The notes under the pieces are model-generated. The model made no database searches. It saw nothing but the letters and a program-made list of their open reading frames with translations, and was not told the DNA's origin. A stretch of 31,362 nucleotides of DNA from a virus, in the IMG/VR virus record IMGVR_UViG_3300005600_000064, positions 1 to 31,362 of that record; one strand, written 5' to 3'. The first letter of the stretch is position 1, and the number at the start of each line of letters is the position of its first letter. The position numbers were made by a program, and so were the translations under genes. This document shows, piece by piece, positions 12,160 to 26,004 of this stretch.

Positions 12160-15100
12160 CTAAACAGCAGTACCTGTCGCGTCCACCCACTGGCTGCCGT
12201 CAGACCTGATGGGTTTGCCAAGAGTGGTGTCGAACATGCTTGCCCCAGCACCAGCTGTAGCGGCGGGTGGGCGATTGGCCGTGATGTCGGCCATGCCCTT
12301 GATGTAGCTGGAGGCAATAATCTCGCCCGTCACTTCAAGGCCGCTCATGGCCTTGACAGTATTATCACCATAGACCCGAAGGGCGTTCGAGCCGGTACCG
12401 AAGCTCATGAAATCATCTGTCGGCCCGGTATCAAAGGAGACGAATATATTGAACACGCTGTCGACATTCAGGTCAGCCGTTCTATCAAAGGACAGCATGG
12501 TCGCGACCGGTTGTTCGATAGTGACCTGGCCGTAATGTGTCGCTGCCTTGGTGAGACGGTCGAGTCTCAAGATAGTTGAAAGCGAGCCGTCGCCGGTGTG
12601 GGTATCGAACGAAAAGCCGCCCGATGAGGTGTAACTCATCCGACCCACCGACGCCCCGGCGTGCCAAAGCTCGAACCACGGGTTCAACGCGCCGATAATC
12701 CGAGCGCTGCTGGCGAACGCGACCTTGTTGCCCAGATCGTCGCGCGCACCACTGGTGGTGTTGTAAATCGCGCCCGAGAAGACAGCATCCTTGGTGATGC
12801 CGTCGACGACAATCGCGCTATTGTTGATATCAAGGGCACCCCAAGTCGCGGCATCCCAGTCATAAGCGCCGATCCGGTTCACACCGCCGCTGATATCCAT
12901 AAAGGTGACACGCCCACCGATGTTTGCGACTGCAGCCCTAGACTGAATTCCCTGTGCTCCGACAATCTGACCACCAAAGCTCGCTAGCCCTATAGTGGAA
13001 ATGGACCCCAAATTAGCACTGCTCGAGGTTTCAAAGCCGCCAAACGTATAGAGCCGCCCCGTATCACCACCCAGAGACATAAGCGCTTCCTCCAGGTGAT
13101 TTTCCCAGATGAACCCCTGCTGCGCCCCATTTATGGCCCGGAACCTTACATGATGCGAGGTACGGCCATCCAAAGACGCGCACGCATCCCCGCCTGACAA
13201 TGACTTTCCAATCCCGGCAGTGGCTACGGTGATACCCCAATATGGGTTTCCAGTATCCCACAAGAAGAGGCCGTAATCCGACCCGCCGTCAACACCACCC
13301 ATAACGCTTAGCATCGTGCCGGATTTCGCAACTAGTTTGTCTGATAAGGTTACTTCGCTTCGACTATGATCCCGGTACAGCCATGGAGCGCTACCGGCTC
13401 GGAAAACCGTATCAAAAGCTGAAGCCCCGGCTTCTCCGTAGCACAGGATATTTGCGCCGTATCCTCCGGCATTGGTGCCCCCGCCAAATACTACTGCTCC
13501 AGCGGGGTTGAGTGCGCCAATACCACTGGAGTCCACCTTGAGGTTGTGGACAAAAAGGTCCGCTACGAAAGTTGCGGGGCCGTCAACGGTCAGGATATTC
13601 ACGCCCGTAACATTTCGGGCGTTCATGTCGATATTGACATACATGTCCAGCGCCGTCGCGTTCAGGAACATTCGACCCACGCCTTCAGTGGCCCACCCAA
13701 GCGTACCGGCAGCGGCCTGGTACATCTTTACATCCGTCCCTCCGGCGAAGATTGCGCCTTTTGTGTAAAGGTCTCCCGTGTCGGCGGTCAGGGACATCAG
13801 CATCATTTCCGCACTATTCTCCCAGCCAAAAAACCGCGTTGCGCCGTTTGTAATGCGGTGCCTGATACCCAAACCGGCCCGACCATCAAGCGAAGTCGCT
13901 GCCGTTTCATCGCTCAACGATTTCAGTGCGCCAGATGATGCCATATACGCGCCGTCTGTAGTCGCGTCTGTGTCCCAGAAAAAGATGCCGCGACCGCTGC
14001 CGCCATCAACCTTATTCTGAACGCTAATTTTTGCACCGCCGTCCACCGTGAGTTTGCCCGTGCCATTCGCAATCGTCAGGCCGAGGCCTTGAGTGTTAAA
14101 CAACTCAAGAGGCATTGAGCTTTGCGACTGGACCCGGAAGCTGGCGGAAAGTGCGCCTAGCGCACCTTTAGAGGTGCCGCTGTTCGTCTGGAAATAGGTA
14201 TAGTAATTATTGCCTGTACCGCCGATCCTTGTGTCGGTTGTCCCTTGGACGTGGAAGTCCCCAATGGGAATAACGCCAATTCCCAGTTTACTTGCGAAGG
14301 TGGCATTCTGGCTAGGGTCCCAGCTAACGGCCAGAGTGTTGTTGGTGTAAATACCAAACACATTCGCATCGACCGCGCCCGCCCGGACATCATAATCATT
14401 GACGCCTGTGGAGCCCTTGAAAGCAATTTGCGAGCTAAGACTGGCCACATTAATAAGTGCCGCAACGGTGGCGGAGCCTGACGCTTCTGTCACTTCAAGC
14501 ATACGTGTAACAGGGACTGCCCCAATCCCGACAGGGCCGTTCATGGTGATTGCTCCGGTGCTGCTTGCCGACAACCAGTTAATCCCGTTGGTCCAGAACG
14601 TCTGTGATCCATTCAAAGCATTCACAAACGCCATCTGCGTTGTACCGCCGGAAGTGTACCCGACGTAGCCGGAACGCGTGGTTGGTGTGGCTGTGCGTGC
14701 GTAGAACCCCATATAGGCATGGTCCTGCGAACCGGGCTTTACAGTCAGGCCTTCAGCACCAACATTTGTGGATAGTACACCCGCAAAGAACCCTGCGCCT
14801 GTGAAAGTGGCCTTGCCCGTTTCGAGAAGCATTTCGCCTTGACTACCGCCTACATCAAAGCGTAGTCCGCCCCCGGCCACACCAAGGCCCACAATCGCGT
14901 TAGGTACTACAGCCAAGCCGTCCCACCCGTTGAAGTTCATCGCGAAGCCCTGCGGCCCGCCTTCCTGAACCCCGCCAATAAAACTTGAACCATTCGAAAC
15001 AATCGAGCCCGAGAAGGTTGCGGATTTGTTCGAATTAAGCGTCAGCGCAAGCTCCATGGGGTCGGCACTAATTTGGCTTGGGTGAACATAGAAGTTCAAG

Positions 15101-15753
15101 CCGATCTGGTCGTTGTCATTGCTTTGCTGAACCGCCGCGATTGCCGCGCGAGCGCTTGACCCCTCTGAGCTACCCGATGGGGTCCAGCCGATAGCGCCAT
15201 AAACGAGGCCGTTTGCAGAGGTAACGCCGCTTGATGCGATCTTTATGGCGACGCCGGTGTCTGCGCCGGTCGTGGCAAAGCCGGCCAACACGCTGTTCGA
15301 TGCGATTTGACCACCGACCATCAGATCACCCGTGAATTCCCCGGCACCCGCAAACACACCACCATCTTTCAGAAGCACGCCATCCGCCGTCACGCCAGCG
15401 TCCGGCGTCACCTCGCGGATGACATCTGCCTCATGGGTGGGGGACAAGAGGAAATCTGCCGTAGCGGCACAATAGACACGCGCGTTGCCTGACAGGTTAA
15501 TCGCTGTTGCACCAACGTGCGCATACGCGCCGTCCACCAGCGTTTCAGCCACTTCCGTGCGCGCGAGCGTCATGACGTCCACAAGTGTGCCGGTGCCGAT
15601 CTCATAATTGTCGCCATCCTCGATCACATAAATGACGCCATCGCCTGGTGTGAAGGCATCGGAGAAACCGATATGACCCGGCAGCGCGCCTGCGAGCGTG
15701 ATGTCACCGGTGCCGGTGGTGGATGTGAGTTCGCGAACCCGGTTTGCCAGCAT
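12160..15753 (-). CDS. Very long phage fibre protein
   Basis: The 1197-residue product has an N-terminal domain ('LANRVRELTSTTGTGDITLA', then 'GDGVIYVIEDGDNYEIG') widely shared by phage fibres. A very long beta/Gly/Ser/Thr-rich shaft follows, then a C-terminal 'FDTTLGKPIRSDGSQWVDA' motif common at fibre ends. Two shaft segments of about 90 residues are clearly related, encoded near 13741-14019 and 13030-13302; both contain 'DGGS..G.F.WDT', 'SLDGR', 'WEN' and 'DTG.LYT'. The start at 15753 has an AGGGA site and is preferred to an ATG 12 codons upstream. Its place directly after the capsid gene, not after the tail-tip gene, is unusual and could mean a capsid-borne fibre. Confidence 0.85.
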   Translation of the reverse strand: MLANRVRELTSTTGTGDITLAGALPGHIGFSDAFTPGDGVIYVIEDGDNYEIGTGTLVDVMTLARTEVAETLVDGAYAHVGATAINLSGNARVYCAATADFLLSPTHEADVIREVTPDAGVTADGVLLKDGGVFAGAGEFTGDLMVGGQIASNSVLAGFATTGADTGVAIKIASSGVTSANGLVYGAIGWTPSGSSEGSSARAAIAAVQQSNDNDQIGLNFYVHPSQISADPMELALTLNSNKSATFSGSIVSNGSSFIGGVQEGGPQGFAMNFNGWDGLAVVPNAIVGLGVAGGGLRFDVGGSQGEMLLETGKATFTGAGFFAGVLSTNVGAEGLTVKPGSQDHAYMGFYARTATPTTRSGYVGYTSGGTTQMAFVNALNGSQTFWTNGINWLSASSTGAITMNGPVGIGAVPVTRMLEVTEASGSATVAALINVASLSSQIAFKGSTGVNDYDVRAGAVDANVFGIYTNNTLAVSWDPSQNATFASKLGIGVIPIGDFHVQGTTDTRIGGTGNNYYTYFQTNSGTSKGALGALSASFRVQSQSSMPLELFNTQGLGLTIANGTGKLTVDGGAKISVQNKVDGGSGRGIFFWDTDATTDGAYMASSGALKSLSDETAATSLDGRAGLGIRHRITNGATRFFGWENSAEMMLMSLTADTGDLYTKGAIFAGGTDVKMYQAAAGTLGWATEGVGRMFLNATALDMYVNIDMNARNVTGVNILTVDGPATFVADLFVHNLKVDSSGIGALNPAGAVVFGGGTNAGGYGANILCYGEAGASAFDTVFRAGSAPWLYRDHSRSEVTLSDKLVAKSGTMLSVMGGVDGGSDYGLFLWDTGNPYWGITVATAGIGKSLSGGDACASLDGRTSHHVRFRAINGAQQGFIWENHLEEALMSLGGDTGRLYTFGGFETSSSANLGSISTIGLASFGGQIVGAQGIQSRAAVANIGGRVTFMDISGGVNRIGAYDWDAATWGALDINNSAIVVDGITKDAVFSGAIYNTTSGARDDLGNKVAFASSARIIGALNPWFELWHAGASVGRMSYTSSGGFSFDTHTGDGSLSTILRLDRLTKAATHYGQVTIEQPVATMLSFDRTADLNVDSVFNIFVSFDTGPTDDFMSFGTGSNALRVYGDNTVKAMSGLEVTGEIIASSYIKGMADITANRPPAATAGAGASMFDTTLGKPIRSDGSQWVDATGTAV
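13030..14019 (-). repeat. Internal duplication in fibre shaft
   Basis: Two copies (about 13741-14019 and 13030-13302) share the order of motifs DGGS, WDT, SLDGR, a xWEN motif and an MSL.xDTGxLYT motif at equal spacing. They are diverged in sequence, so the duplication is old. Boundaries are approximate. Confidence 0.7.
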
Positions 15754-15781
15754 GAGAAAATCCCTGATCAAAGATGGAGAA

Positions 15782-15815
15782 GAAAACAAGAAAGGGCGGC
15801 GCCGAAGCCCCGCCC
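15782..15815 (-). terminator. Rho-independent terminator after capsid gene
   Basis: On the minus strand a 9-bp stem with one mismatch closes a TTCG loop (15794-15815) and is followed by TTTCTTGTTTTC. It lies between the capsid stop and the fibre start, so it would lower fibre transcripts relative to capsid. Confidence 0.7.
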
Positions 15816-15840: not shown

Positions 15841-16968
15841 TTACGCCAGGCCGAACTTCAGAAGCTTGAGCGCATGGTCATTGACCAGCGCACCGCCCAC
15901 GCGGCGGGTAGCATAGAAATGCACATACGGCTTGTTGGTGTATGGGTCGCGGAGCACGCGGGTGCCGGTGCGTTCCACCAGCGTATAGGCGCGCTCAAAA
16001 TTGCCGAAGGCGATCGAGAAGCTGTCGGACGCCATATCAGGCATGTCTTCAACTTCAAGAACGGGATAGCCCAGAAGCGTGTCCGGCTGGCCTTCCGCAA
16101 GGCCGGCGCGCCAGATGAAGTTGCCGTCTGCATCCTTGAACTTGCGGACCGTCGCCAGCGTTTTGGAATTCATCACAAAACGCGCACCTTGGCGGTACCG
16201 GGCAGAGAGCGCATGCACCAGATCAATCAGGATATCCGCTGGGTTGGACGCTGGGAAGGCAGCATCCACACCGGTCGGGATATACTGGACCTCGCCAAAG
16301 GTGCGGGTGTCATCATCGCTGGTGGACGGCGTGTAGGTCAGGAAGCCTTTCGGCATGTTGGTGCCCGTGCCGTTCACAATGGCCGCACCTTCCTGTGCCG
16401 CGAATTCCTCCGCCACCTCCTCATTTAGCCAGGCTTCGGCGTCAAACTGCATGTCATCAAGCGCGCGCTGGGTTGCGGCGGCGTTGGCATACAGCTCACT
16501 CGGCGTGATCAGCACCTGCTCAAGGCTTGGCGTGCCTGTCTCAGCCCGGGCGTCCGCTTCGCCCACCCAACCGGATGTGGCACCGCCGGTGTTCACCAGA
16601 CGCTTATAGTCTGACGTCTCGATCGTCTTGACCTTCACGACAGAGCGCAGCGGCGACAGGATGCGAAGCTGCTTTTCAATCTCGCTGTCGATCACGGTTG
16701 GCACGGCATAGCCGCCGTCACCGCCAGTGGAGGTGGAAAGCGCCTTGGCTTCAAGCGCCTTCAGGGCGTCGGTGTCACCCTTCTGGATGAAACCGCTAAA
16801 GAAAGCAGATTTGTGTTCGGTTACATCAGCACCACCGAAATCATAAGCCGCACCTGGGCGCGCCATCTTGGTTTCCAGCATATCCAGCCGGTCTTTCATG
16901 GCCATCAGGCCGCTTTCCGCCGTGTCGGTATAGTCGTCAATGGCGGCTTTCAGATCTGTCATTTCCAT
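15841..16968 (-). CDS. Major capsid protein (HK97 fold, GTA gp5-like)
   Basis: The 375-residue protein has a coiled, charged N-terminal scaffold-like segment (residues 1-~75), a possible processing region near 'EAKALSTSTGGDGGYAVP', and typical HK97 capsid features: 'IEKQLRILSPLRSVVKV', 'WVGEADARAETGTPSLEQV', 'YANAAATQRALDD' and 'FAAQEGAAIVNGTGTNMPKG'. The C-terminal motif 'PYVHFYATRRVGGALVNDHA' is also family-typical. The first ATG (16968) is used, with an AAGGACA site; a second ATG lies two codons in. Terminator-like hairpins lie on both sides of the gene, so it may have its own transcription unit. Confidence 0.95.
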   Translation of the reverse strand: MEMTDLKAAIDDYTDTAESGLMAMKDRLDMLETKMARPGAAYDFGGADVTEHKSAFFSGFIQKGDTDALKALEAKALSTSTGGDGGYAVPTVIDSEIEKQLRILSPLRSVVKVKTIETSDYKRLVNTGGATSGWVGEADARAETGTPSLEQVLITPSELYANAAATQRALDDMQFDAEAWLNEEVAEEFAAQEGAAIVNGTGTNMPKGFLTYTPSTSDDDTRTFGEVQYIPTGVDAAFPASNPADILIDLVHALSARYRQGARFVMNSKTLATVRKFKDADGNFIWRAGLAEGQPDTLLGYPVLEVEDMPDMASDSFSIAFGNFERAYTLVERTGTRVLRDPYTNKPYVHFYATRRVGGALVNDHALKLLKFGLA

Positions 16969-17152: not shown

Positions 17153-17464
17153 TCAGGTGCACTGCCAGGAGTGGCTCACAGGTTTTATCTCCAGTGTGGT
17201 GCCATTATAGACATGATCGCCGCCGAGCGTTTTGTCACCGTTAAGCTTCCGCCCGCCCTTGACCAACTCAAATTTCTTCATCTCAAGATTGAACTTTTCA
17301 GAAACCATTCGTTTCACTGAACAAACAGATGCCTCATCAAGGTCACCAGTCTTAATTCTTTCCTTCAGCTCGCCAAAGGCCACATAGACAAAGTCGCTCG
17401 AGCCCGCAGCCACAGGGCCTGCCATCACCGCAGCAAGTGCCGTCGTCAAAACCAGTCTTTTCAT
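17153..17464 (-). CDS. Small exported protein with ubiquitin-like half
   Basis: The 103-residue protein has a signal peptide (about residues 1-20, ending AGPVAAG). Its second half aligns with ubiquitin without gaps over about 46 residues: 'VKRMVSEKFNL' with 'VKAKIQDKEGI', then L, GG(R/K), L, TL, V and 'TTLEI' at the same spacings as ubiquitin's L, AGK, L, TL, I and 'STLHL'. I aligned this by eye. The C-terminus (SHSWQCT) lacks a Gly-Gly, so conjugation is not expected. Two cysteines in the mature part could form a disulfide. It has an AAGGA site, and its upstream region contains a degenerate LexA-type site shared with the divergent gene at 17607. A beta-grasp fold is inferred; function unknown. 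Confidence 0.65.
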   Translation of the reverse strand: MKRLVLTTALAAVMAGPVAAGSSDFVYVAFGELKERIKTGDLDEASVCSVKRMVSEKFNLEMKKFELVKGGRKLNGDKTLGGDHVYNGTTLEIKPVSHSWQCT

Positions 17465-17546: not shown

Positions 17547-17561
17547 GTTCACTTTTTGTTC
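17547..17561 (+). promoter_or_regulatory. LexA (SOS) box, copy 1
   Basis: GTTCACTTTTTGTTC is a perfect GTTC-N7-GTTC direct repeat, the operator bound by LexA in alphaproteobacteria. It is 45 bases upstream of the ATG at 17607 and overlaps a possible -10 (TATGTT at 17545). Confidence 0.75.
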
Positions 17562-17606: not shown

Positions 17607-18356
17607 ATGCGTTTTATCAGTGGCTTGATTTGCGGCCTTCTGGCATCTGCCAGCATCTTGGCTTTGGCAAATGATGACGAGAGCATTGTGGCGGAAAACT
17701 GGAACCGCGACTGGGACTATCCCTGGTCTTCTGCCGACGGCAATCCCAAGCTGGGCAATGAATCAGTCGTTCCGTTTCCGAGCCCCAATGAAGGCGACGA
17801 TTATCCCTACCTAGATCTAGTGGAAAGCAACCCGCTCCTTGAACTGAGCAGGAATGACATCAAATCTGTATGCATTTTTGGGTATTCTGGCGAGAACACA
17901 CCAATCTTTTCGACAGAAATATTCCTGACCCCGGATGCCCGTCAGCGCGTGGCGGATATCCTTGCCTCAAAAGACGGCGTCGAGGTCGCTTTCCGCTGGC
18001 TCGGAATTGAGGTCAACGCCTTCACCGTAGACGCCCGCAAACTGGAATATTTCAAGGAATTCGCAGACATTTATCCCGGCGCCCTCGATTGGAAGGAAAG
18101 AACATCCTCATTGGAAAATGAAGAGAATTACGCCTACTTGGACTTGGCCGATCTGTCCTTTTCATCCGGCCCGTCGTCCCTTTATATGGGTTATTATATC
18201 ACCAAGATCTTATCCGGCACCAATGAGCTTGAAGCTTGCGAGCATGGCAAGCCCCCTCATGAAATACCGGGCTACACAGAGCATCTTGAACTCTGGACCA
18301 AAACCAAAGAAATGTACGCCAGCGGCAAGATGAAACGTTATGGGTATGACTATTAA
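17607..18356 (+). CDS. Exported protein, SecDF P1-head-like family, paralog 1
   Basis: The 249-residue product has a signal peptide or anchor (residues 1-19, 'RFISGLICGLLASASILALA') and an acidic mature part. A central section 'DIKSVCIFGY', then 'STEIFLTPDARQRVADILAS' and 'VEVAFRWLGIEVNAFTV', matches the pattern of the other two plus-strand paralogs and resembles the SecDF P1 head (strand - helix with R.AD - strand - 'G..V'). A late Cys ('LEACEHG') is conserved in the family. The ATG at 17607 has an AGGAAAGGA site. It is under a LexA-type box, so SOS induction is predicted. It ends 21 bases from the stop of the displaced protease end on the other strand. Confidence 0.75.
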   Translation: MRFISGLICGLLASASILALANDDESIVAENWNRDWDYPWSSADGNPKLGNESVVPFPSPNEGDDYPYLDLVESNPLLELSRNDIKSVCIFGYSGENTPIFSTEIFLTPDARQRVADILASKDGVEVAFRWLGIEVNAFTVDARKLEYFKEFADIYPGALDWKERTSSLENEENYAYLDLADLSFSSGPSSLYMGYYITKILSGTNELEACEHGKPPHEIPGYTEHLELWTKTKEMYASGKMKRYGYDY

Positions 18357-18376: not shown

Positions 18377-18720
18377 TCAATATCTACAGAAACCCGTTGA
18401 GGGATTGATGGCGCCCGACCGCTTCCAAGATGACCAATGCCGGTTCAGGGACAGGCCTATTTTGCTCAGATTTTTCGTCTCACAAAGCAATCGTTGACGT
18501 TTGTACTCTATATTGGCGACCATCTGACTAATCGAACCAGCTTCAGGGGATGCAAACCCCTTGGCCGTGATGGCCTTCGCGCGGGAGCGGGAGAAGCCCT
18601 GTTCCCGCAGGAAGCGCTCAAAGTCACGCGGGGTTTCAAGATTGGCGCCCGCTGATTTCACGGTGGATACGCGGGCAAGTTCATTGGCTGGGAAAGTCAC
18701 GAGGGAAATCTCCATCAATT
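18377..18720 (-). pseudogene. Displaced 3' end of a prohead protease gene, copy 1
   Basis: The frame encodes 'LMEISLVTFPANELARV', then 'LETPRDFERFLREQGFSRSR' and 'AKAITAKGF', the same residues as positions ~139-184 of the intact protease, followed by a different, ordinary-looking C-terminus ending in FCRY. The catalytic His and Ser regions are absent, so it is not a functional protease. Homology to the intact gene starts abruptly at about 18720; upstream DNA is the SOS-box region of the next plus-strand gene. Its linker residues (STVKSAGAN) match copy 2 and not the intact gene (TGVKSTDYQD), so it comes from another protease allele. Confidence 0.8.
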
Positions 18721-18772
18721 CTTTTTCGCAATTGCGTAGAAACAACCATTGCGGTACGTTCACTTTTTGTTC
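18629..18772. repeat. Long direct repeat, copy A (protease junction plus SOS box)
   Basis: About 145 bases are nearly identical to 19757-19904. The repeat spans the protease fragment, the unrelated segment with TTGCGTAGAAACAACCATTG and the LexA-type box. It shows that whole cassettes were duplicated or share an origin. Confidence 0.85.
18758..18772 (+). promoter_or_regulatory. LexA (SOS) box, copy 2
   Basis: GTTCACTTTTTGTTC, identical to copy 1, overlaps a possible promoter TTGCGT-N17-TACGTT (18732-18760) and lies 56 bases before the ATG at 18829. Confidence 0.75.
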
Positions 18773-18828
18773 ATTTGCCGTATGCAACGGTGTCGGCATT
18801 GATCATTTGCTACTCGGGGGGGAAGTCT

Positions 18829-19491
18829 ATGTGGAAATATCTGGCCGGCATGGCATCAGGAATTATTCTCCTGCCCTTGGCCCTGTATCTGTTTTTGTCT
18901 CCGAAAGCATTCTGGCAATCCTATCATTACATCACGGACGACATCAGCCTCTATTGGGATGGTTCTGATGTCATGAGCACCTATACCTATGCCTTGGGTG
19001 AAGATTACAGCGACGACCCCAGCAGGTTCGAAACCGACACCCTCCAGTTGATGGAAAACACCCCGATCGAAACGCTGGAAGCAACAGATATCAAGCGTGT
19101 CTGCCTCGTCCCCACTTGGAACGGGGAAGACTTTTTAGCCAATTATTATGTCCAGGTGTTTCTCGCACCCGAGGCCAAAACCCGGATTGCTGATCGATTG
19201 GCCACAAAAGCGGGTAAACAGTTTTCTTTCCGTCTCAAAGGTACGGAACTATCCAGTTTCATCTTGGCCGCAGACCTGCTGCAGGGCTTTGCCAATGACA
19301 AATTGCCCGACAATGTAAACAGCGATTTCGAATTCACGGTACCGGAAGGTGCCACAATAGCGGGGCTTTATTATGCTCACACCCTTGCAGGCGGCAAGGA
19401 TCTGGAGATGTGTGAGCCTACAGACAGCCTTGATATGATCCCCTACTATCGGGACTTTGTGGAAACCATCAAACGCTCCCGCCAGGAATAG
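18829..19491 (+). CDS. Membrane-anchored protein, SecDF P1-head-like family, paralog 2
   Basis: The 220-residue protein has an N-terminal membrane anchor ('MASGIILLPLALYLFL', about residues 7-22) and a large outside domain. The section 'DIKRVCLVP', 'YYVQVFLAPEAKTRIADRLA' and 'QFSFRLKGTELSSFILAADL' aligns with paralog 1, and the SecDF P1-head pattern is clearest here, including a closing 'AGLYYAHTLAGG'-type helix. A late Cys ('EMCEP') is shared. The ATG at 18829 has a GGGGGGAAG site; a TTG start 18 codons upstream overlaps the operator region and is rejected. A LexA-type box predicts SOS control. It ends before a hairpin/pseudoknot-like sequence. Confidence 0.75.
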   Translation: MWKYLAGMASGIILLPLALYLFLSPKAFWQSYHYITDDISLYWDGSDVMSTYTYALGEDYSDDPSRFETDTLQLMENTPIETLEATDIKRVCLVPTWNGEDFLANYYVQVFLAPEAKTRIADRLATKAGKQFSFRLKGTELSSFILAADLLQGFANDKLPDNVNSDFEFTVPEGATIAGLYYAHTLAGGKDLEMCEPTDSLDMIPYYRDFVETIKRSRQE

Positions 19492-19496
19492 GAATT

Positions 19497-19542
19497 TGCC
19501 GCCAATCTCAAGGGTAAAAAACCGTTGGCGGCAGCCCTGAGA
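19497..19542. other. Pseudoknot-like or terminator structure
   Basis: TGCCGCCAA (19497) pairs with TTGGCGGCA (19525), and TCTCAAGGG (19506) pairs with CCCTGAGA (19535) with one bulge. The order stem1, stem2, stem1', stem2' is that of an H-type pseudoknot. It sits between two convergent genes and may act as a shared terminator; no U-run is present. Confidence 0.35.
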
Positions 19543-19546
19543 TATA

Positions 19547-19850
19547 TCAACGAAAAGCGAAGGTCACTTTCACTTCGTCAATCCCGCTTGATTTGCCACG
19601 AATGCTGATTTCCTGCATGCCCTCGGCAATGGCGAATTCGTTTTGGGCACCGTTGCCGTTCGATTGCCACCTTCCGATCTTCGGCCCTGTCGGAGAAACA
19701 TAGTCGACCTCAAGAAACACCGGCCCTTTAAAAGGATAGCGGGAAACGTTCAAAGTCACGCGGGGTTTCAAGACTGGCGCCCGCTGATTTCACGGTGGAT
19801 ACGCGGGCAAGTTCATTGGCTGGGAAAGTCACGAGGGAAATCTCCATCAA
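19547..19850 (-). pseudogene. Displaced protease 3' end, copy 2, with extra domain
   Basis: From about 19850 to 19752 the minus strand encodes 'LMEISLVTFPANELARV' and 'LETPRDFERF' in frame, then the frame closes at 19728. The frame shifted by +1 continues to 19547 as about 70 beta-rich residues ('GPVFLEVDYVSPTGPKIG', 'EISIRGKSSGIDEVKVTFAF'). So the protease fragment and the C-terminal domain are out of frame with each other: either a frameshifted fusion or a fusion point inside the repeat. The catalytic part is missing. The second domain is of a similar style to the 134-residue protein at 22559. Confidence 0.7.
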
Positions 19851-19904
19851 TTCTTTTTCGCAATTGCGTAGAAACAACCATTGCGATACGTTCACTTTTT
19901 GTTC
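19757..19904. repeat. Long direct repeat, copy B
   Basis: Second copy of the ~145-base repeat at 18629-18772, differing at only a few bases. It carries the same protease fragment border and LexA-type box. Confidence 0.85.
19890..19904 (+). promoter_or_regulatory. LexA (SOS) box, copy 3
   Basis: GTTCACTTTTTGTTC again, overlapping TTGCGT-N17-TACGTT, 47 bases before the ATG of a 35-residue membrane peptide at 19952. Confidence 0.75.
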
Positions 19905-19951
19905 GATATGTTTTGGACCAAAGAGCTGAACCAACGTTACGGGGGAATACA

Positions 19952-20059
19952 ATGAAGCACTTTATTCTCCGCTTCCCGGCCGGATGCATTGCCATTGCTG
20001 TGATCATGACTTCTGGCCTGTGGCGATTGGCTCCGGCAAGAAAAATTTGGTGTAAGTAA
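19952..20059 (+). CDS. 35-residue membrane peptide under SOS box
   Basis: ATG at 19952 follows a GGGGGAA site and encodes a basic, single-span peptide ('MKHFILRFPAGCIAIAVIMT' then a Trp/Arg/Lys-rich end). In position it corresponds to the anchor of the paralogous plus-strand proteins, so it may be a truncated relative. It could also be a true small membrane protein: SOS-induced inner-membrane peptides such as SidA of Caulobacter inhibit cell division. The sequence itself does not decide between these. Confidence 0.5.
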   Translation: MKHFILRFPAGCIAIAVIMTSGLWRLAPARKIWCK

Positions 20060-20093
20060 ATATGCTCTGCGGTGCAATTAGAAGGAACCCAAT

Positions 20094-20228
20094 ATGGAGA
20101 AGAAGGACGCCGATAAAAAAGAACTGACCTTTGGCATCGCCCGCGTAAACCCATTCGCCCGGGGCTGGGTGAACGGTGCCATTATCGTCATCATCTATTA
20201 TGAGTTCTTCGCTGACTGCGCCTGCTAG
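20094..20228 (+). CDS. 44-residue membrane peptide, overlaps protease stop
   Basis: ATG at 20094 has a GAAGGAA site and encodes a charged N-terminus (MEKKDADKKELTF) and one membrane segment ('GWVNGAIIVIIYYEFF') ending DCAC. Its TAG overlaps the protease TAG on the other strand: the palindrome CTAG (20225-20228) serves as stop for both genes. It probably forms an operon with the 35-residue peptide gene. No family recognised. Confidence 0.55.
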   Translation: MEKKDADKKELTFGIARVNPFARGWVNGAIIVIIYYEFFADCAC

Positions 20229-21385
20229 GAAACGGAAATTTCAAACCGCTCTTCACGGCGCGGCGCACCATCCATCGGGCGCTGTAAACCGCGGGGTTCT
20301 TGCCCTTTATGGTATGTAAGCGTGTATGAAATTCTTTTATCCACAACCAAACGACCCGCTGCTGTGCGCCAGTCGTCAAGATCAAACGGATTGAAACCAT
20401 CTTCGCTTGGGGTCGCCTTCTCGATCTCGGTCAGGGCCTTAAATTCATTTTGCCACAGCTCAATTTGACGCTGTTCATAGCGGCGACCATTCCAGGCCCA
20501 ATAGGTAATGACACAGTCGAAATAGGCATGCCGGTGCGGCGGTTTTACCTTAAACCGGGTGCGCCCTTTCGGCAGACCTGGGAACAACCAATTATCAGGG
20601 TTTGTCGAAGGACGGTTCAACAGCCCACGGGCAACCCGACCGGGCAGCAATCGCACCACCGCTGCCCCATATCCCTTCACTTCACGTCCTGCTTCACCGA
20701 GACCGGCAGCAATACCGTCCAAAAGCCTCTCGCGAGAGCAAAGGATCTGCGATACAGCCTCCGCGACATCAAGTTCCTTGCCGCCGTATAGCCGACTGCC
20801 ACCAAAACCCTTGGCCGTGATCGCCTTGGCGCGGGACCGGGAGAAGCCATGCGCGCGCAGCATGCGCTCAAAATCGCGCGGGGTTTCAAGGTCTTGATAG
20901 TCGGTGGATTTAACGCCCGTCACCCGCGCCAGCTCATTGGCTGGGAAGGTCACGAGGGAAATCTCCATCAGGTCTGCTTTGGTGATTGTACGGGTGCCGG
21001 TCGCGGCATTGCGGGAGGCTTCGCGGGTCACGAACCCGATCGAAAGCCCATCAAGCGCCCCCATTTTGAGTAACTCATAAGCCTCGCGCCCCCGCCCTTC
21101 CATCGACAGGCGGCCCTTCACATAAAGGCCCTTCTTGTCCTCGCGCACCACATCGAACCGGCCGATGGGTTCCTTGGCGTTATGCTGCCAGAGCAGCGCA
21201 GGCATGCGGCCTTTCAGGCTTTCGCTGAACGCGCCGCGGGATACCACATCGCCGTCCCGGTCCAGGTTGCCAAAAATGGCGCCATATCCTTCGAACGTGC
21301 CGTTCTCACCGCCGGCGTCACCGGCAGCTTTCAGTTCAAGCGGGACAGACGTCACCTCACGGGTCATCGTTTGGCTGGTCGCCAT
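20225..21385 (-). CDS. Prohead protease (HK97 family) with long C-terminal extension
   Basis: The 386-residue protein cleaves the capsid scaffold segment during head maturation. Residues 1-~150 have the family motifs: 'FEGYGAIFGNLDRDGDVV', the catalytic His in 'LLWQHNAKEPIGRF' (about 68) and the catalytic Ser in 'LDGLSIGF' (about 115), with 'MEISLVTFPAN'. The usual protein ends near residue 190-230. Here about 200 further residues follow: a helical part and then a basic, beta-rich domain ('RFKVKPPHRHAYFDCVITYW', 'RISYTLTYH') ending FEISVS. The ATG at 21385 has an AAGGAG site and is preferred to a start seven codons upstream. Two displaced 3' ends of related genes lie downstream. Confidence 0.85.
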   Translation of the reverse strand: MATSQTMTREVTSVPLELKAAGDAGGENGTFEGYGAIFGNLDRDGDVVSRGAFSESLKGRMPALLWQHNAKEPIGRFDVVREDKKGLYVKGRLSMEGRGREAYELLKMGALDGLSIGFVTREASRNAATGTRTITKADLMEISLVTFPANELARVTGVKSTDYQDLETPRDFERMLRAHGFSRSRAKAITAKGFGGSRLYGGKELDVAEAVSQILCSRERLLDGIAAGLGEAGREVKGYGAAVVRLLPGRVARGLLNRPSTNPDNWLFPGLPKGRTRFKVKPPHRHAYFDCVITYWAWNGRRYEQRQIELWQNEFKALTEIEKATPSEDGFNPFDLDDWRTAAGRLVVDKRISYTLTYHKGQEPRGLQRPMDGAPRREERFEISVS

Positions 21386-21500: not shown

Positions 21501-21776
21501 ATGTCTGATCAACAACCCCGGATGCCCCACAAGGCAGACCCAACAAGGCTTGCCAAATACCGGGCCTGGCTGTCTGTTGTCGCGCTGCTCGTTGCCGCCA
21601 TTTTCGGCACGCTGGCCATGGGGTCCTTCGCGGCAGGCGAAGGGCTGGCGGGTGAAAACGGCATGGACCATGTTGGCCGCGTCATCATCACCTTCAACAT
21701 GGTGGGCATTGTGCTTTTCGGCTTCGCCGCTGCCGCGCTTTATCTGGCCTGGCGCTTCCGCCCCGGCGGGGATTAG
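21501..21776 (+). CDS. Small two-span membrane protein (unknown)
   Basis: The 91-residue product has two hydrophobic segments ('LSVVALLVAAIFGTLAM' and 'IITFNMVGIVLFGFAAAALY') separated by a Gly-rich loop with an acidic residue. An AGGA site precedes the ATG. It is inserted head to head with the protease gene and in the same direction as the SOS-box gene downstream. No LexA-type box is seen before it. Family not recognised. Confidence 0.65.
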   Translation: MSDQQPRMPHKADPTRLAKYRAWLSVVALLVAAIFGTLAMGSFAAGEGLAGENGMDHVGRVIITFNMVGIVLFGFAAAALYLAWRFRPGGD

Positions 21777-21832: not shown

Positions 21833-21847
21833 GTTCTTATTTTGTTC
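21833..21847 (+). promoter_or_regulatory. LexA (SOS) box, copy 4
   Basis: GTTCTTATTTTGTTC keeps the GTTC-N7-GTTC rule with a different spacer, so it is not part of the long repeat. That independent conservation supports function. It is 22 bases before the ATG at 21870. Confidence 0.7.
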
Positions 21848-21869: not shown

Positions 21870-22550
21870 ATGGGCATCAAACTGTTGGCCAGCTTCCTGA
21901 CGGGGCTCATCCTTGGGCCTCTGGCCCTCTATTTCATCATCCTGCCATTCCCCATCCGCAATGCCATTTATGTCGAATATGAACCCGGCCCCATATCCGG
22001 CGCCGGAGGCGGCATGAACTTCCAATATGGCAGCGAATTCGCCCGCAACCCTGATGGTTCAGCGTTCGAGAAGGGCACCTTCTATCTGATGGCCCCTGAA
22101 GCCCTGGCCCCGACTGGCCTGAGCGAAGTCAAATCCGTCTGTGTGGAAGCCGCGTCATCCCACACGAGCAGGGATGGGCCCGCACAGTTGGATATCGCCC
22201 TCTCCTTCAAGGCTGAGGCAATCCAGCGCTTCACCGAAGCAACTGACCCGCTTACCGACGGCCCACTTTTACTGATGCTGGATGGCTATGTGATTGGCGG
22301 CGCGCCCCAGACCCGGTATCCAGATGGATCACCTGCATGGGATGCAACACTGACCTTTTCACGGCACAATATTGATGCCCTGGCACTGTTCACAGAGGCG
22401 CTTTCCCCCCTTGATCCATTAAAGCCGTGCGACCTGACGCCCTACGGTGTGGAAGACCCCAACACCGTCATCGAGCCCGAAGCTCTGGCCGACTTCAAGG
22501 CCTGGACAAACGCGCACAAGGAGGCATGGAACAACACCCCCTGGTGGTGA
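21870..22550 (+). CDS. Membrane-anchored protein, SecDF P1-head-like family, paralog 3
   Basis: The 226-residue protein has the anchor 'FLTGLILGPLALYFIIL' (about residues 7-24), close to that of paralog 2. Downstream, 'EVKSVCVEA', then 'AQLDIALSFKAEAIQRFTEA' and 'PLLLMLDGYVIGGAP', follow the same order as in paralogs 1 and 2; 'LLMLDGYVI' is particularly like the SecD head ('IVLDG.V'). A late Cys ('LKPCDL') is shared. The start at the ATG next to the anchor is supported by paralog 2. Ends 8 bases from the stop of the convergent gene at 22559. Confidence 0.75.
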   Translation: MGIKLLASFLTGLILGPLALYFIILPFPIRNAIYVEYEPGPISGAGGGMNFQYGSEFARNPDGSAFEKGTFYLMAPEALAPTGLSEVKSVCVEAASSHTSRDGPAQLDIALSFKAEAIQRFTEATDPLTDGPLLLMLDGYVIGGAPQTRYPDGSPAWDATLTFSRHNIDALALFTEALSPLDPLKPCDLTPYGVEDPNTVIEPEALADFKAWTNAHKEAWNNTPWW

Positions 22551-22558
22551 CATGCCCA

Positions 22559-22963
22559 TCAGTGTGTCGAAATTTCCATCCGGCTGCCAATGTCGGCACC
22601 ATCAATAATGACCTGAATTTTATCATAGCCTTGAACGCGAGGTTGATAGCCAGCTGGGATGTCCCATCCGCGTAGCACAAGGTTGGTCCCTGCCCGATAT
22701 CCGTTCGGCAGGGGTCTCACAGAAATTGATCCAGGTACCAGTGCATCACCTTGCCACTTCCACCAAGCCACTCGGATTTTTGCGGGGCCGATGCCGTGGT
22801 CTCCCAACCCTCGCAGATTCAGAACCGTGCGAGGCCGAATAAGATCAAAGAGTTCCACATGATGACTTCTTCGAATAGTGAACTGGCGCCACGCCTTGCA
22901 GGTCAGACGGACCTTGCAGGCCCCGATATGGTCGACGAGCGATTTGACTTCCACTTCACGCAT
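22559..22963 (-). CDS. Beta-rich protein coupled to portal gene (position of GTA g3.5)
   Basis: The 134-residue product starts at an ATG that overlaps the end of the portal gene by eight bases, with an AAAGGAAAG site, so it is translated with the portal. The second part is a beta-sandwich-like domain ('KIRVAWWKWQGDALVPGSI', 'TNLVLRGWDIPAGYQ', 'DKIQVIIDGAD'). Its style is like the out-of-frame domain at 19547-19771 and perhaps the protease extension. In GTA clusters a small gene (g3.5) occupies this place, but I see no clear sequence match. Structural, or part of the accessory array; unknown. Confidence 0.65.
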   Translation of the reverse strand: MREVEVKSLVDHIGACKVRLTCKAWRQFTIRRSHHVELFDLIRPRTVLNLRGLGDHGIGPAKIRVAWWKWQGDALVPGSISVRPLPNGYRAGTNLVLRGWDIPAGYQPRVQGYDKIQVIIDGADIGSRMEISTH

Positions 22964-24122
22964 CTTTCTTTCCTTTGCCAAACCCCAAAATCTTGCGTTT
23001 TTCCGGGTCGGTCAGGAAAGCGGCGTTTGCGATGCGGTCAAACCGCGCCGCGCGGCTTGAAGCGAGCGCTGGGACCTCATCAAAATCAGGCACAAGTTTG
23101 AGCCCACCGCCATACTTTGGCGCCAGCCAGTTGGTCAGTTCCTGCGCGATGTCCTGCGCCAATGGGATCACCGTGTCTTCCCACAGGCTGGCGCGGGCTT
23201 CCGCATAGTTTGAATAGGTCTGCGCGTCCGGCACACCCAGCATCTGGGGCGGCACACCAAAGGCCATGGCGATCTCGCGCGCGGTCATATTCTTGGCCGC
23301 CGTCCAGTCCATGTCCTTGGGGCTCATCCCCATGTCCTGCCACTTGAGGCCCCCTTCAAGAAGAAGCGGGCGCCCGGCGTTTGCGGGGCCGGTGTGGCGC
23401 GCTTCCACCTGATCCTTCAGGCTTTTGAACTGTGCGTCCGTCAGCGGCGCATCCGCGCCTTCCTGGTAAAGCACACCCGAGGGCGTGCCGCCGTTTTGGA
23501 TCAGCGCCAGGTTCCAGCGCGTGCCTTCATTAAAGCTGTCCACCGCCAGCGCGGCGGCTTCAAGGGGCGCAAGGCCATACCAGTCAGAAAGCGGATTGAA
23601 GCTTTTCCAGTGCAGCACGGAAGGCGCGTCAAAGCGCTGCTTTTTGCCGCCCACATTCTGTTCGAACCCGCGCGGCAGGCCGTCCTCGCCCGCAAGCACG
23701 CTCATGCTGTCTGGGCGCATCAGCCACAGTTCCTTGGGCAGGCCGCCATCAGGCCCGACCGAAAGCGCATAGGCATTGCCCGCAATCAGGTAATAGCCAG
23801 CCAGGTTATAGAAGAAATTCTCCCCGCTCACCCGCGGGTTGGGACGCGCCAGAAGCTTCAAGAGGTCATGCTCATCAATTCGCGCGTCGCCGCGGTAAAG
23901 CCTGAGCGGCACGCTCGCAATGGCGCGGGACAAGAGGTTAATAGCCCGGTAGGCGATGACGTTGTCGCGGTAGCCTTCCGCCGCCAGCGCGTCATAGCGC
24001 CGGGGTGTGGCCACCGCCTGACCGGGGGTGATGCGCGACAGGATCGGCCTTGATACAGACTTCTCTTCGCTTTGCGTTGCCGCGTGCTGTCGCGCACCTA
24101 AAAATCGGTTCCAGAATGCCAT
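22956..24122 (-). CDS. Portal protein (HK97 family, GTA gp3-like)
   Basis: The 388-residue protein forms the dodecameric DNA channel at one head vertex. Typical motifs are 'DNVIAYRAINLLSRAIASVP', 'HDLLKLLARPNPRVSGENFF', 'GNAYAL' and the C-terminal 'TAREIAMAFGVPPQMLGVPD' followed by 'YAEARASLWEDTVIPLAQ'. Length and order are as expected. The downstream gene overlaps its stop. A 183-base gap with a dispersed repeat separates it from the terminase. Confidence 0.93.
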   Translation of the reverse strand: MAFWNRFLGARQHAATQSEEKSVSRPILSRITPGQAVATPRRYDALAAEGYRDNVIAYRAINLLSRAIASVPLRLYRGDARIDEHDLLKLLARPNPRVSGENFFYNLAGYYLIAGNAYALSVGPDGGLPKELWLMRPDSMSVLAGEDGLPRGFEQNVGGKKQRFDAPSVLHWKSFNPLSDWYGLAPLEAAALAVDSFNEGTRWNLALIQNGGTPSGVLYQEGADAPLTDAQFKSLKDQVEARHTGPANAGRPLLLEGGLKWQDMGMSPKDMDWTAAKNMTAREIAMAFGVPPQMLGVPDAQTYSNYAEARASLWEDTVIPLAQDIAQELTNWLAPKYGGGLKLVPDFDEVPALASSRAARFDRIANAAFLTDPEKRKILGFGKGKKDA

Positions 24123-24305: not shown

Positions 24306-25628
24306 TTAAAGTGTTCGGATGTTTAACTGGGCGGTAGCACGGAGCATCAAGTCACTGAGCGCCCACACAAGAGCATCAACCCTGTCAGGGCTCTTGGCGG
24401 GGCTTTTGGCGGTGCTACGATTTGACCGCGTGCCCGTGAATTCACACATCTGGTCTTCAAGCTGCGCATGCGCCCCCACATGGTGCACCATCCCGCGTTC
24501 ATAAAGCGCGGCCACAGGTTCCGCCCGCACGGCTTTTGACCGCGTGGCGTGCACCGTGCGCACAGGCACAGAAACGTCTACCTGACGGATCAGGCTTTCC
24601 ACCATCGCTCCGCCCTGGTTTATTTCGGCAACGATACGGTCCGCCTGCAGGCTGTGATAGAGGCCCACAGCTTTGGACGCCCAAGCGTGCGGCGAAAGCC
24701 CCTGTGTGGTGCCATCCGCCAAAACGTAAGCATGACCGCGCGCGTCCTTGCCCACAGCCACCAGGCCGCATTCGTCCGCCTTCTCGCCCACTGTCGCCGG
24801 TGGGTCCACCGCCACGACGATGCGCTCTAGCTCAGGGGCGGTGCTTACGCGGGTGTCGTCGAGCATCGCGCGGGACCACAAGGCCCCAGGCACATCCTCC
24901 AAAATCTCGGCCATCAGCTCCTGCCGCCCAAGGCGCGTGCCTTCATATTTGGCGATGATCTCATCGCGGAAGCCGGGGGCCAGATTATCCAGATTGTCGA
25001 AGGTCGAACCCTTCGTGACTGTCACGTTCGTGGCCGCCACCAGCTTCTTGAGTAAGGCGGTCGGCTTCGGTGTGGTGGTGATCATGGTGCGTGGCTGCCG
25101 CCCCAGCCTGAGGCCGAACATCAGCATGTCCCATGTGTCCTCACAGCGCCGCCAGGCGCACAGCTCGTCTGCCCAGGCGGCGTCATGTTGGGGCCCGCGA
25201 AGGCGTTCGGGTTCTTCAGCGCCATAAAGCGTCGCCACCGCGCCCGATGGCCACTCAAGCGTACGGGTTGAGGACGTGAACTTGGGCCGCGCCCATGGCG
25301 GGCAAACGGCCATAAGGCCGCTGTCGCCTTCCACCATCACGGCGCGGGCGTCAGAAAGCGTGGGGGCAATCAGCGCAATGCGCTTAGCCTGCCCACCTTC
25401 CACAAGGCTGCGCACCCATTCAGCACCTGCGCGCGTCTTGCCAAAGCCGCGCCCGGCCAGCACCAGCCAGTGTGCCCAGGCACCATCAGGCGGCAGCTGG
25501 CTCGCACGCGCCCAGAAGCGCCAGTCATAAAGAAGCGCTGCGGCTTCAAGCTCTGTCAGGCTTCCGAGCAGCCTTAGCCGCTCCGCCGCCTTCAAGCGCA
25601 GAAGCGAATTTTTCGTATAGTGTTTCAC
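24306..25628 (-). CDS. Terminase large subunit (GTA gp2-like)
   Basis: The ~440-residue motor/nuclease packages DNA. The Walker A motif is 'LAGRGFGKTRAGAEW' (about residue 60), the Walker B region 'HDAAWADELCAW' (about 150), with 'TTTPKP' as the coupling motif. The nuclease domain has 'IVVAVDPPATVGEKADECG' (first Asp) and 'SPDRVDALVWAL' (last Asp). A GTG at 25628 with an AAGGG site is chosen; a GTG two codons earlier is possible. Its start overlaps the small subunit gene by 83 bases. Confidence 0.95.
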   Translation of the reverse strand: MKHYTKNSLLRLKAAERLRLLGSLTELEAAALLYDWRFWARASQLPPDGAWAHWLVLAGRGFGKTRAGAEWVRSLVEGGQAKRIALIAPTLSDARAVMVEGDSGLMAVCPPWARPKFTSSTRTLEWPSGAVATLYGAEEPERLRGPQHDAAWADELCAWRRCEDTWDMLMFGLRLGRQPRTMITTTPKPTALLKKLVAATNVTVTKGSTFDNLDNLAPGFRDEIIAKYEGTRLGRQELMAEILEDVPGALWSRAMLDDTRVSTAPELERIVVAVDPPATVGEKADECGLVAVGKDARGHAYVLADGTTQGLSPHAWASKAVGLYHSLQADRIVAEINQGGAMVESLIRQVDVSVPVRTVHATRSKAVRAEPVAALYERGMVHHVGAHAQLEDQMCEFTGTRSNRSTAKSPAKSPDRVDALVWALSDLMLRATAQLNIRTL

Positions 25629-26004
25629 GGGCACCCTTCACCTGGTCTTCAAGGGTTCCTTCCCCCGAAGCCCGCTCCCCGTGGCGCTTGAGAAGGAACA
25701 TCAGCATGCTGTCTGAATATTCGGTCACGTGGCCCACAAGCTCGCCACCCCGGTAAACCGGTTTCTTGGTGCCTTCAAGCGCGCGGCGCGCAGCCTCGCG
25801 CTCCAGCGCCGTCAAGCTGGTCTTAAGGGCCGTCTGCCATTCTTCGGCAAACAGCGGGTCCTTGTCCCGCCATTTATAGACCGTGCGCGGCTGCACACCG
25901 GCGGCCTTTGCGGCGTCCTTGACGGCCGCGCCGGTCGCCAACGCGCCCAGGAAATCAGCCTGGCGTTTCTTGCGCGCCTTTGTTGCCTGGGTTGGGAAGG
26001 TCAT
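25546..26004 (-). CDS. Terminase small subunit-like DNA-binding protein
   Basis: The 152-residue protein has an N-terminal helix-turn-helix ('RQADFLGALATGAAVKDAAK' then 'GVQPRTVYKWRDKDPLFAEEW'), as in small terminases that recognise the packaging site. The C-terminal half is helical. It is the first gene of the structural operon, right after the promoter at 26236-26264 with a ~225-base leader. Confidence 0.8.
   Translation of the reverse strand: MTFPTQATKARKKRQADFLGALATGAAVKDAAKAAGVQPRTVYKWRDKDPLFAEEWQTALKTSLTALEREAARRALEGTKKPVYRGGELVGHVTEYSDSMLMFLLKRHGERASGEGTLEDQVKGARETLYEKFASALEGGGAAKAARKPDRA

Follow-up and report, generated by a model that had tools for sequence, protein, structure and literature searches.

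Introduction

Polymorphic toxin systems of the contact-dependent growth inhibition (CDI) and Rhs type join a constant delivery part to an exchangeable C-terminal domain with a linked partner; they also carry orphan C-terminal cassettes, with displaced tips lying downstream and the partner outlasting the tip (PMC3482391). MuF toxins of temperate phages are head proteins whose C-terminal domain varies, and a small putative immunity gene lies behind the toxin gene (PMC5576092). The internal proteins of T-even phages are diverse cargo proteins that have a prohead-targeting segment alone in common and are processed proteolytically to the mature form (PMC3012670), and polyvalent proteins are large multidomain effectors for which packaging in heads and delivery along with the DNA have been inferred (PMC5512222). 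The gene transfer agent (GTA) of Rhodobacter capsulatus, RcGTA, ejects its DNA into the recipient periplasm (PMC7296036). In this study, we describe a 31.4-kb contig from IMG/VR (the window, that is, the whole stretch analysed; WIN in locus lists) in which the prohead protease gene of a GTA-like head and tail operon ends in a tag of about 30 aa and a variable domain (X), and is followed by displaced, tag-bearing cassettes beside genes of a membrane-anchored partner family (G) behind LexA-type SOS boxes. On balance we favor the view that this is a polymorphic head-cargo array, in which the tag would load X, the protease would free it and G would be its cognate, SOS-controlled antagonist.

The locus resembles each of these systems in part. 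It has all the CDI/Rhs features named above; what sets it apart is that a prohead protease of a phage-like operon serves as the carrier, that the partner gene is mostly on the opposite strand, preceded by a LexA box, and that no toxin domain is recognized. The constant N-terminal module and the variable C-terminal domain are both present, and a trafficking role is presumed for the tag. Like MuF toxins, it couples a head protein with a variable C-terminal domain to a small putative immunity gene, but the MuF domain is absent, the carrier is a tag plus protease that matches Peptidase_S78 only, and there are SOS boxes and a multi-cassette array with orphans. The T-even internal proteins share with it diverse cargo behind a common segment, and processing is predicted here; they belong to a T4-type head and protease and have no dedicated partner gene. 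The cleavage site of the T4 protease differs as well. As with polyvalent proteins, packaging in heads and delivery with DNA would apply, but here the cargo would be small cassettes exchanged on a prohead protease. The head and tail gene content is like that of RcGTA, including Phage-tail_3 and a Phage_TAC_11 (GTA-gp10) match that exceeds the Pfam cut-off, whereas the GTA_megatron match (28.6 bits) is far below the NCBIfam curated cut-off of 800. The element may be a GTA or a prophage remnant, and we call it GTA-like from its gene content. By analogy, it would work like a blend of polymorphic toxins and T-even internal proteins, with a different carrier, an opposite-strand partner and SOS control. 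A literature search on GTAs with toxin/immunity cargo and on Kordiimonas GTAs found no description of such cassettes.

Results

An array of cassettes behind the prohead protease

The protease and the cassettes in the window are arranged as follows.

20225 to 21385, minus strand: prohead protease (Peptidase_S78, Pfam PF04586, E=9.5e-32, match limited to residues 26-163), ending in the tag and X1, a variable domain of class A
20804 to 20893, minus strand: protease tag, about 30 aa, DLETPRDFERML...AITAKGF, found with a hidden Markov model
20225 to 20803, minus strand: X1, class A variable domain fused to the protease, with a cleavage-like REVK followed by G near 20675 (motif table)
20094 to 20228, plus strand: X1 partner, small protein of 44 aa with a single transmembrane segment, ...IIVIIYYEFFADCAC; homologues lie beside class A/D domains
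19952 to 20059, plus strand: probable remnant of a G N-terminus, 35 aa, hydrophobic, with the SOS box at 19890 on its 5' side
19739 to 19904, minus strand: repeat unit (SOS promoter, LMEISL, tag), copy 2
19728 to 19850, minus strand: displaced protease 3' end of cassette 2 (frag2), LMEISL...ETPRDFERF and then a frameshift; 97% repeat with cassette 3
19547 to 19771, minus strand: X2 remnant, class B domain, 58% identical to the intact orphan of locus L013
18829 to 19491, plus strand: G2, transmembrane-anchored and predicted periplasmic, with a SecDF-P1-like domain and an invariant Cys pair (AlphaFold2 model, alignment)
18607 to 18772, minus strand: repeat unit (SOS promoter, LMEISL, tag), copy 1, 97% alike to copy 2
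18377 to 18724, minus strand: displaced protease 3' end of cassette 3 (frag1), with tag, coil and the truncated start of a class B domain (class B W..W aligned)
17607 to 18356, plus strand: G3, G-family partner of the now-truncated class B domain (sequence match)

Repeats and reading frames bear out the original prediction that two displaced protease 3' ends lie here, each beside an SOS box and a plus-strand gene. The two direct repeats (18607-18772 and 19739-19904) are 166 nt long and 97% alike, SOS box included; each spans the stretch from the box to the tag ETPRDFERF, LMEISLVTFPANELARV included. The intact protease contains third copies that are less similar (81% for 20907-20975, 86% for 20803-20890). 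Since the fragments are 97% alike to each other and 81% to the protease, which is the order of similarity first proposed, a single tandem duplication of the window's own protease is ruled out. The junction is identical in both window copies and in the orphan of L005, consisting of the SOS box, a short common leader and then TGATGGAGATTTCCC, and at the same point the intact protease reads ...ACC followed by TGATGGAG.

Both displaced copies in the window are damaged. Frag1 codes for LMEISLVTFPAN...AITAKGF and then a differing tail, truncated early in the class B domain. In frag2, the end of the tag is gone, with a deletion and a change of frame, and the X2 remnant, a different tail, is read in another frame than 19728-19850. 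X1 on the protease is the one X that is intact, while three G genes survive. The C-terminal part of the protease matches the class A domains of 12 relatives, and the protease including X1 is 76% identical to that of L005. The intact protease tail is itself a variable domain and therefore one cassette of the series.

The damage would suit ordinary decay, in which tandem duplication and recombination have left dead fragments at a mosaic phage locus whose morons are unrelated, as would the displaced end in L048, which is 95% identical to that locus's own protease. However, extra cassettes in relatives are open reading frames (ORFs) with their own start, tag, short coil and X, mostly intact in six loci (L005, L006, L008, L009, L013 and L048), where the tags are conserved, and the linked partners and the motif enrichment described below also speak against decay. 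This explanation is already weakened, and we regard it as very improbable. The term "displaced end" describes the window well and is incomplete for the relatives, whose equivalents are mostly such stand-alone genes.

Cassette number varies and cassettes are exchanged

Twenty-eight related loci were oriented, and the interval from portal to capsid was mapped in 27. Across these 27, zero to two extra cassettes lie behind the protease: the capsid follows the protease directly in L056 and L062, many loci carry a single X, fused to the protease, with its partner, a further cassette is present in L005, L009 and L048, and two further ones are found in L006, L008 and L013. The arrangement thus varies widely, in keeping with the cassette series that had been proposed, and the orphan C-terminal cassettes support the suggested likeness to polymorphic toxins with displaced tips. 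X domains, assigned to classes by hand, comprise A (the commonest on proteases), B, C, D and a few singletons, and at least five classes follow one tag; a tag search also yielded the viral contigs L067 and L068, with X of class C and class B, respectively. When class A and class B profiles were compared, tag and coil alone aligned, and the orphans of L006, L008, L009, L013 and L048 share the N-terminal tag ahead of diverse X. Two arrangements of another kind were seen: in L055 (3701-5163) the protease is tailless and the same slot holds three other co-directional ORFs, and another alphaproteobacterium (L112, 1396-1794, minus strand) has a 132-aa, class B-like ORF (E=1e-5) with no obvious tag.

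The clearest exchange is between L051 and L052. Their protease cores are 100% identical and the loci are 95% identical over 3.6 kb up to LE(G/E)K, which lies 3' of tag and coil; unrelated X and G follow, and identity then resumes at 91% over 7.6 kb. The pairs window/L013, L009/L012 and L058/L061 likewise have common flanks and differing interiors. Judged from these alignments, the cassette (X plus partner) is the unit of exchange, and the joint swap of X and G in L051/L052 agrees with the proposal that a new protease 3' end arrives linked to an SOS gene. Breakpoints fall in the region that had been predicted, at LMEISL in the window and L005 copies and at LExK just past the tag in L051/L052. 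In L006 and L008, segments of about 200 bp (SOS box, start, tag) of separate cassettes are 84-92% alike and therefore usable for homologous recombination. Homologous exchange through the common tag and promoter repeats would be enough to explain the pattern. The integrative element restoring the end of its target gene, to which the original prediction had likened the array, is not supported, as no recombinase-like gene was seen among the cassette ORFs and the breakpoints differ (LMEISL versus LExK).

X is linked to a membrane-anchored partner

By hand count, 33 of 33 intact X have an adjoining membrane-anchored partner, mostly on the opposite strand and most often a G behind a LexA box, and no such partner is found with tag-bearing proteases that lack X (L055, L056, L062, L072 and L078). 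G0 (of the gap between portal and protease), G2 and G3 are one family. G3 matches only G genes adjoining class B domains (L006, L008, L009, L010, L013), and homologues of the X1 partner adjoin class A/D domains (L005, L008, L009, L012, L013, L059, L061). Class B domains go with the G-I subfamily in 9/10 cases against 1/17 for other X (p=2e-5, with the later-found L068 included), and the Mantel correlation between X and G is modest (r=0.21, p=0.002); the loci are kin, so these pairing statistics, like those on motifs, are not fully independent. The G-I preference of class B holds though the same loci contain other types. A strict one-to-one pairing of X and G classes was ruled out, class B with G-I alone being strong. 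G was found in 17/399 genomes of the order, and all 17 carry the protease. In L011 (9229-9687) and L047 (3966-4424), a 152-aa protein with several transmembrane segments follows the class B domain on the same strand, in place of an SOS-controlled G.

The linkage bears on whether X is anti-defense cargo, as T4 IPI is, countering a host barrier after delivery, with G genes being independent SOS morons that share the site. T-even internal proteins are diverse, have the targeting sequence alone in common and are proteolytically processed (PMC3012670), which fits; co-assortment and co-swapping tie G to X, which does not, and we find this explanation quite improbable.

Four LexA-type boxes lie in the window.

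17547 to 17561, plus strand: GTTCACTTTTTGTTC
18758 to 18772, plus strand: GTTCACTTTTTGTTC
19890 to 19904, plus strand: GTTCACTTTTTGTTC
21833 to 21847, plus strand: GTTCTTATTTTGTTC

For GTTC-N7-GTTC, 0.64 boxes were expected and 0/100 shuffles reached four. All four point toward the start of a nearby downstream plus-strand gene. The two units of box and gene first described are both present, but there are four in total, the fourth being that of G0. Boxes number 28 per 91 kb in cassette intervals versus 7 per 271 kb elsewhere in the same loci (about 12-fold denser), and an exact box lies 22-75 bp upstream of 17/25 G genes. With boxes so close upstream, the G genes are probably under LexA/SOS control.

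G has an N-terminal transmembrane anchor and, in the alignment, invariant Cys92 and Cys195. In the G2 model (pLDDT 75, domain about 90) the best PDB matches of the domain are to the SecDF periplasmic P1 domain (E=0.03, probability 0.98, TM-score about 0.31). The model suggests that G is a transmembrane-anchored periplasmic protein, and this predicted compartment is the one that RcGTA DNA enters in the recipient (PMC7296036). Partners outlive X in the window (G2 and G3), and G genes in L049 and L061 also seem to be without X, an asymmetry as expected of immunity or exclusion genes.

The same observations could be read without killing: X would help DNA over the recipient periplasm, and G would be a SieA-like, SOS-induced factor that blocks particles with a matching X. 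Such an ejection and exclusion pair agrees with a predicted periplasmic, membrane-anchored G, with the periplasmic entry of RcGTA DNA, with co-assortment and with retention of partners once X decays. Against this, L055, L056 and L062 are without X, although ejection proteins are as a rule essential and conserved, and a conduit needs no multiple X per element. We consider this reading rather unlikely.

The tag and predicted release of X

Prohead proteases of other phages, both S78 and ClpP-like, carry the tag (consensus ETPRDFERFLRdaGFSRsRAKAITAKGF) at their C-terminus too. The ClpP-like (S14-type) bearers (L073, L074, L085, L087) look unrelated to S78 in sequence, with the fold judged by eye. 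From these comparisons, the tag is a C-terminal feature of prohead proteases in general; because unrelated proteases with the same job carry it, it is probably a docking signal for the procapsid and a candidate general procapsid-docking peptide.

At the boundary of coil and X, [LIVMF]ExK occurs in 21/35 X proteins versus 2.2 in shuffles, a count that is not of independent cases since X proteins are partly of common ancestry, and in 0/20 protease tails without X. Capsid proteins of the same loci have [LVIF]E[AT]K followed by [AGS]LS at the expected boundary of delta and mature domains (for example, LEAK followed by ALST), and HK97 gp5 is cut after a Lys. Because LExK is enriched in X and resembles this capsid boundary, X is probably released from the tag by the head protease at LExK in the maturing head.

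For class B, the model shows a beta-sandwich with a helical tag, and its matches are generic (PirA, weakly; GOLD; PliG; tail-fiber domains). Its likeness to binding-type beta-sandwiches and tail-fiber domains would fit a binding domain on or near the head that is exchanged as host surfaces change, with G as an assembly or secretion helper. As in HK97, however, prohead proteases act within the shell, class C X appears helical by eye, and a helper is unlikely to be SOS-controlled, periplasmic, antisense and retained without X; such a decorating or adhesive role is in our view unlikely.

The host operon and neighboring genes

The minus strand of the window carries an HK97/RcGTA-like head and tail operon, which also holds connector, completion, tail and host-specificity genes.

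24306 to 25634, minus strand: terminase
22956 to 24122, minus strand: portal
22559 to 22963, minus strand: X0, tagless 134-aa ORF convergent with G0 (position only)
21870 to 22550, plus strand: G0, G-family gene in the gap between portal and protease (G profile, E=3.2e-11)
15841 to 16968, minus strand: capsid

Close relatives are found in Kordiimonas, Pseudokordiimonas and unclassified alphaproteobacterial metagenome-assembled genomes, and the prohead protease was found in 25/30 genomes of Kordiimonadaceae; this is an RcGTA-like head and tail operon of marine Kordiimonadaceae. X0 is possibly a further, fifth cassette without a tag; as a class B domain it gave no match to the profile. The gap that holds X0 and G0 also varies among relatives.

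Three other genes were noted. A 91-aa protein with two predicted transmembrane segments (21501-21776, plus strand) lies antisense just upstream of the protease and is kept in L005, L006, L008, L012 and L013. Between the array and the capsid, a small secreted protein with paired Cys (17153-17464, minus strand; weak ubiquitin-like match, Pfam E=0.03, under the cut-off) is kept in most relatives (L006-L010, L013, L046, L048, L050, L052, L053, L058, L067). In the gap between capsid and connector, a 1209-aa fiber-like ORF (12160-15789, minus strand) matches relatives in its N-terminal 130 aa or so and scattered blocks alone, and is therefore mosaic.

Discussion

The proposed cargo array builds on what can be read from the sequence: the architecture and its variation, the precise swap, the linkage of X and G, the SOS boxes, the motif enrichment and the common tag. 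From these we infer capsid loading, cleavage, delivery, antagonism and the order of insertion. Tag and coil at the end of the protease would act as a procapsid-targeting signal, and an X behind the tag would ride either on the protease or on orphans, which are small separate proteins with just the tag. During head maturation, the protease would cut after LExK and set X free inside the head, from which it would be ejected together with DNA into the recipient periplasm. G, the cognate antagonist, would be expressed under SOS control in cells making or meeting particles. The repeated segment of SOS promoter, LMEISL, tag and coil would let new cassettes of X and G enter by homologous exchange, and older ones would remain downstream and decay, X before G. 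That new cassettes enter in front and push old ones downstream is suggested by the decay of the downstream copies in the window.

Several observations weigh against this proposal. One X, in L059, has no tag. The sole partner of 6/33 X (WIN, L005, L009, L012, L013, L059) is a protein of about 40 aa with a single transmembrane segment, and the co-directional 152-aa partner in L011 and L047 has no SOS box. Pairing is imperfect, as L051 has class B with another G and L046 another X with G-I; class C is found with more than one type of G, and classes C and A have G types in common. The common ancestry among X proteins, noted above, belongs here too. The generic beta-sandwich modeled for class B suits binding as well as toxicity. 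Searches of Pfam, PHROGs, PDB and phage records returned no known toxin or immunity family for X or G, and no toxin fold was found for X.

Within the proposal of head cargo and antagonist, X and G are most likely toxin and immunity, and otherwise ejection protein and exclusion factor. It is possible, though doubtful, that the whole forms a GTA-like particle with exchangeable toxins on the protease tail, freed at maturation, and that SOS-induced periplasmic immunity serves kin discrimination.

Should X prove to be head cargo and G the antagonist of X, particles of phage origin across a whole bacterial family would carry a polymorphic effector-partner system akin to CDI, Rhs and MuF, but loaded through the maturation protease and linked to SOS. 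It would also provide a general procapsid-targeting tag of about 30 aa for HK97-type heads and a cleavage rule for cargo release. The natural swap between L051 and L052 makes the modules readily testable, and the system would make it possible to test directly if gene transfer agents tell kin from others.

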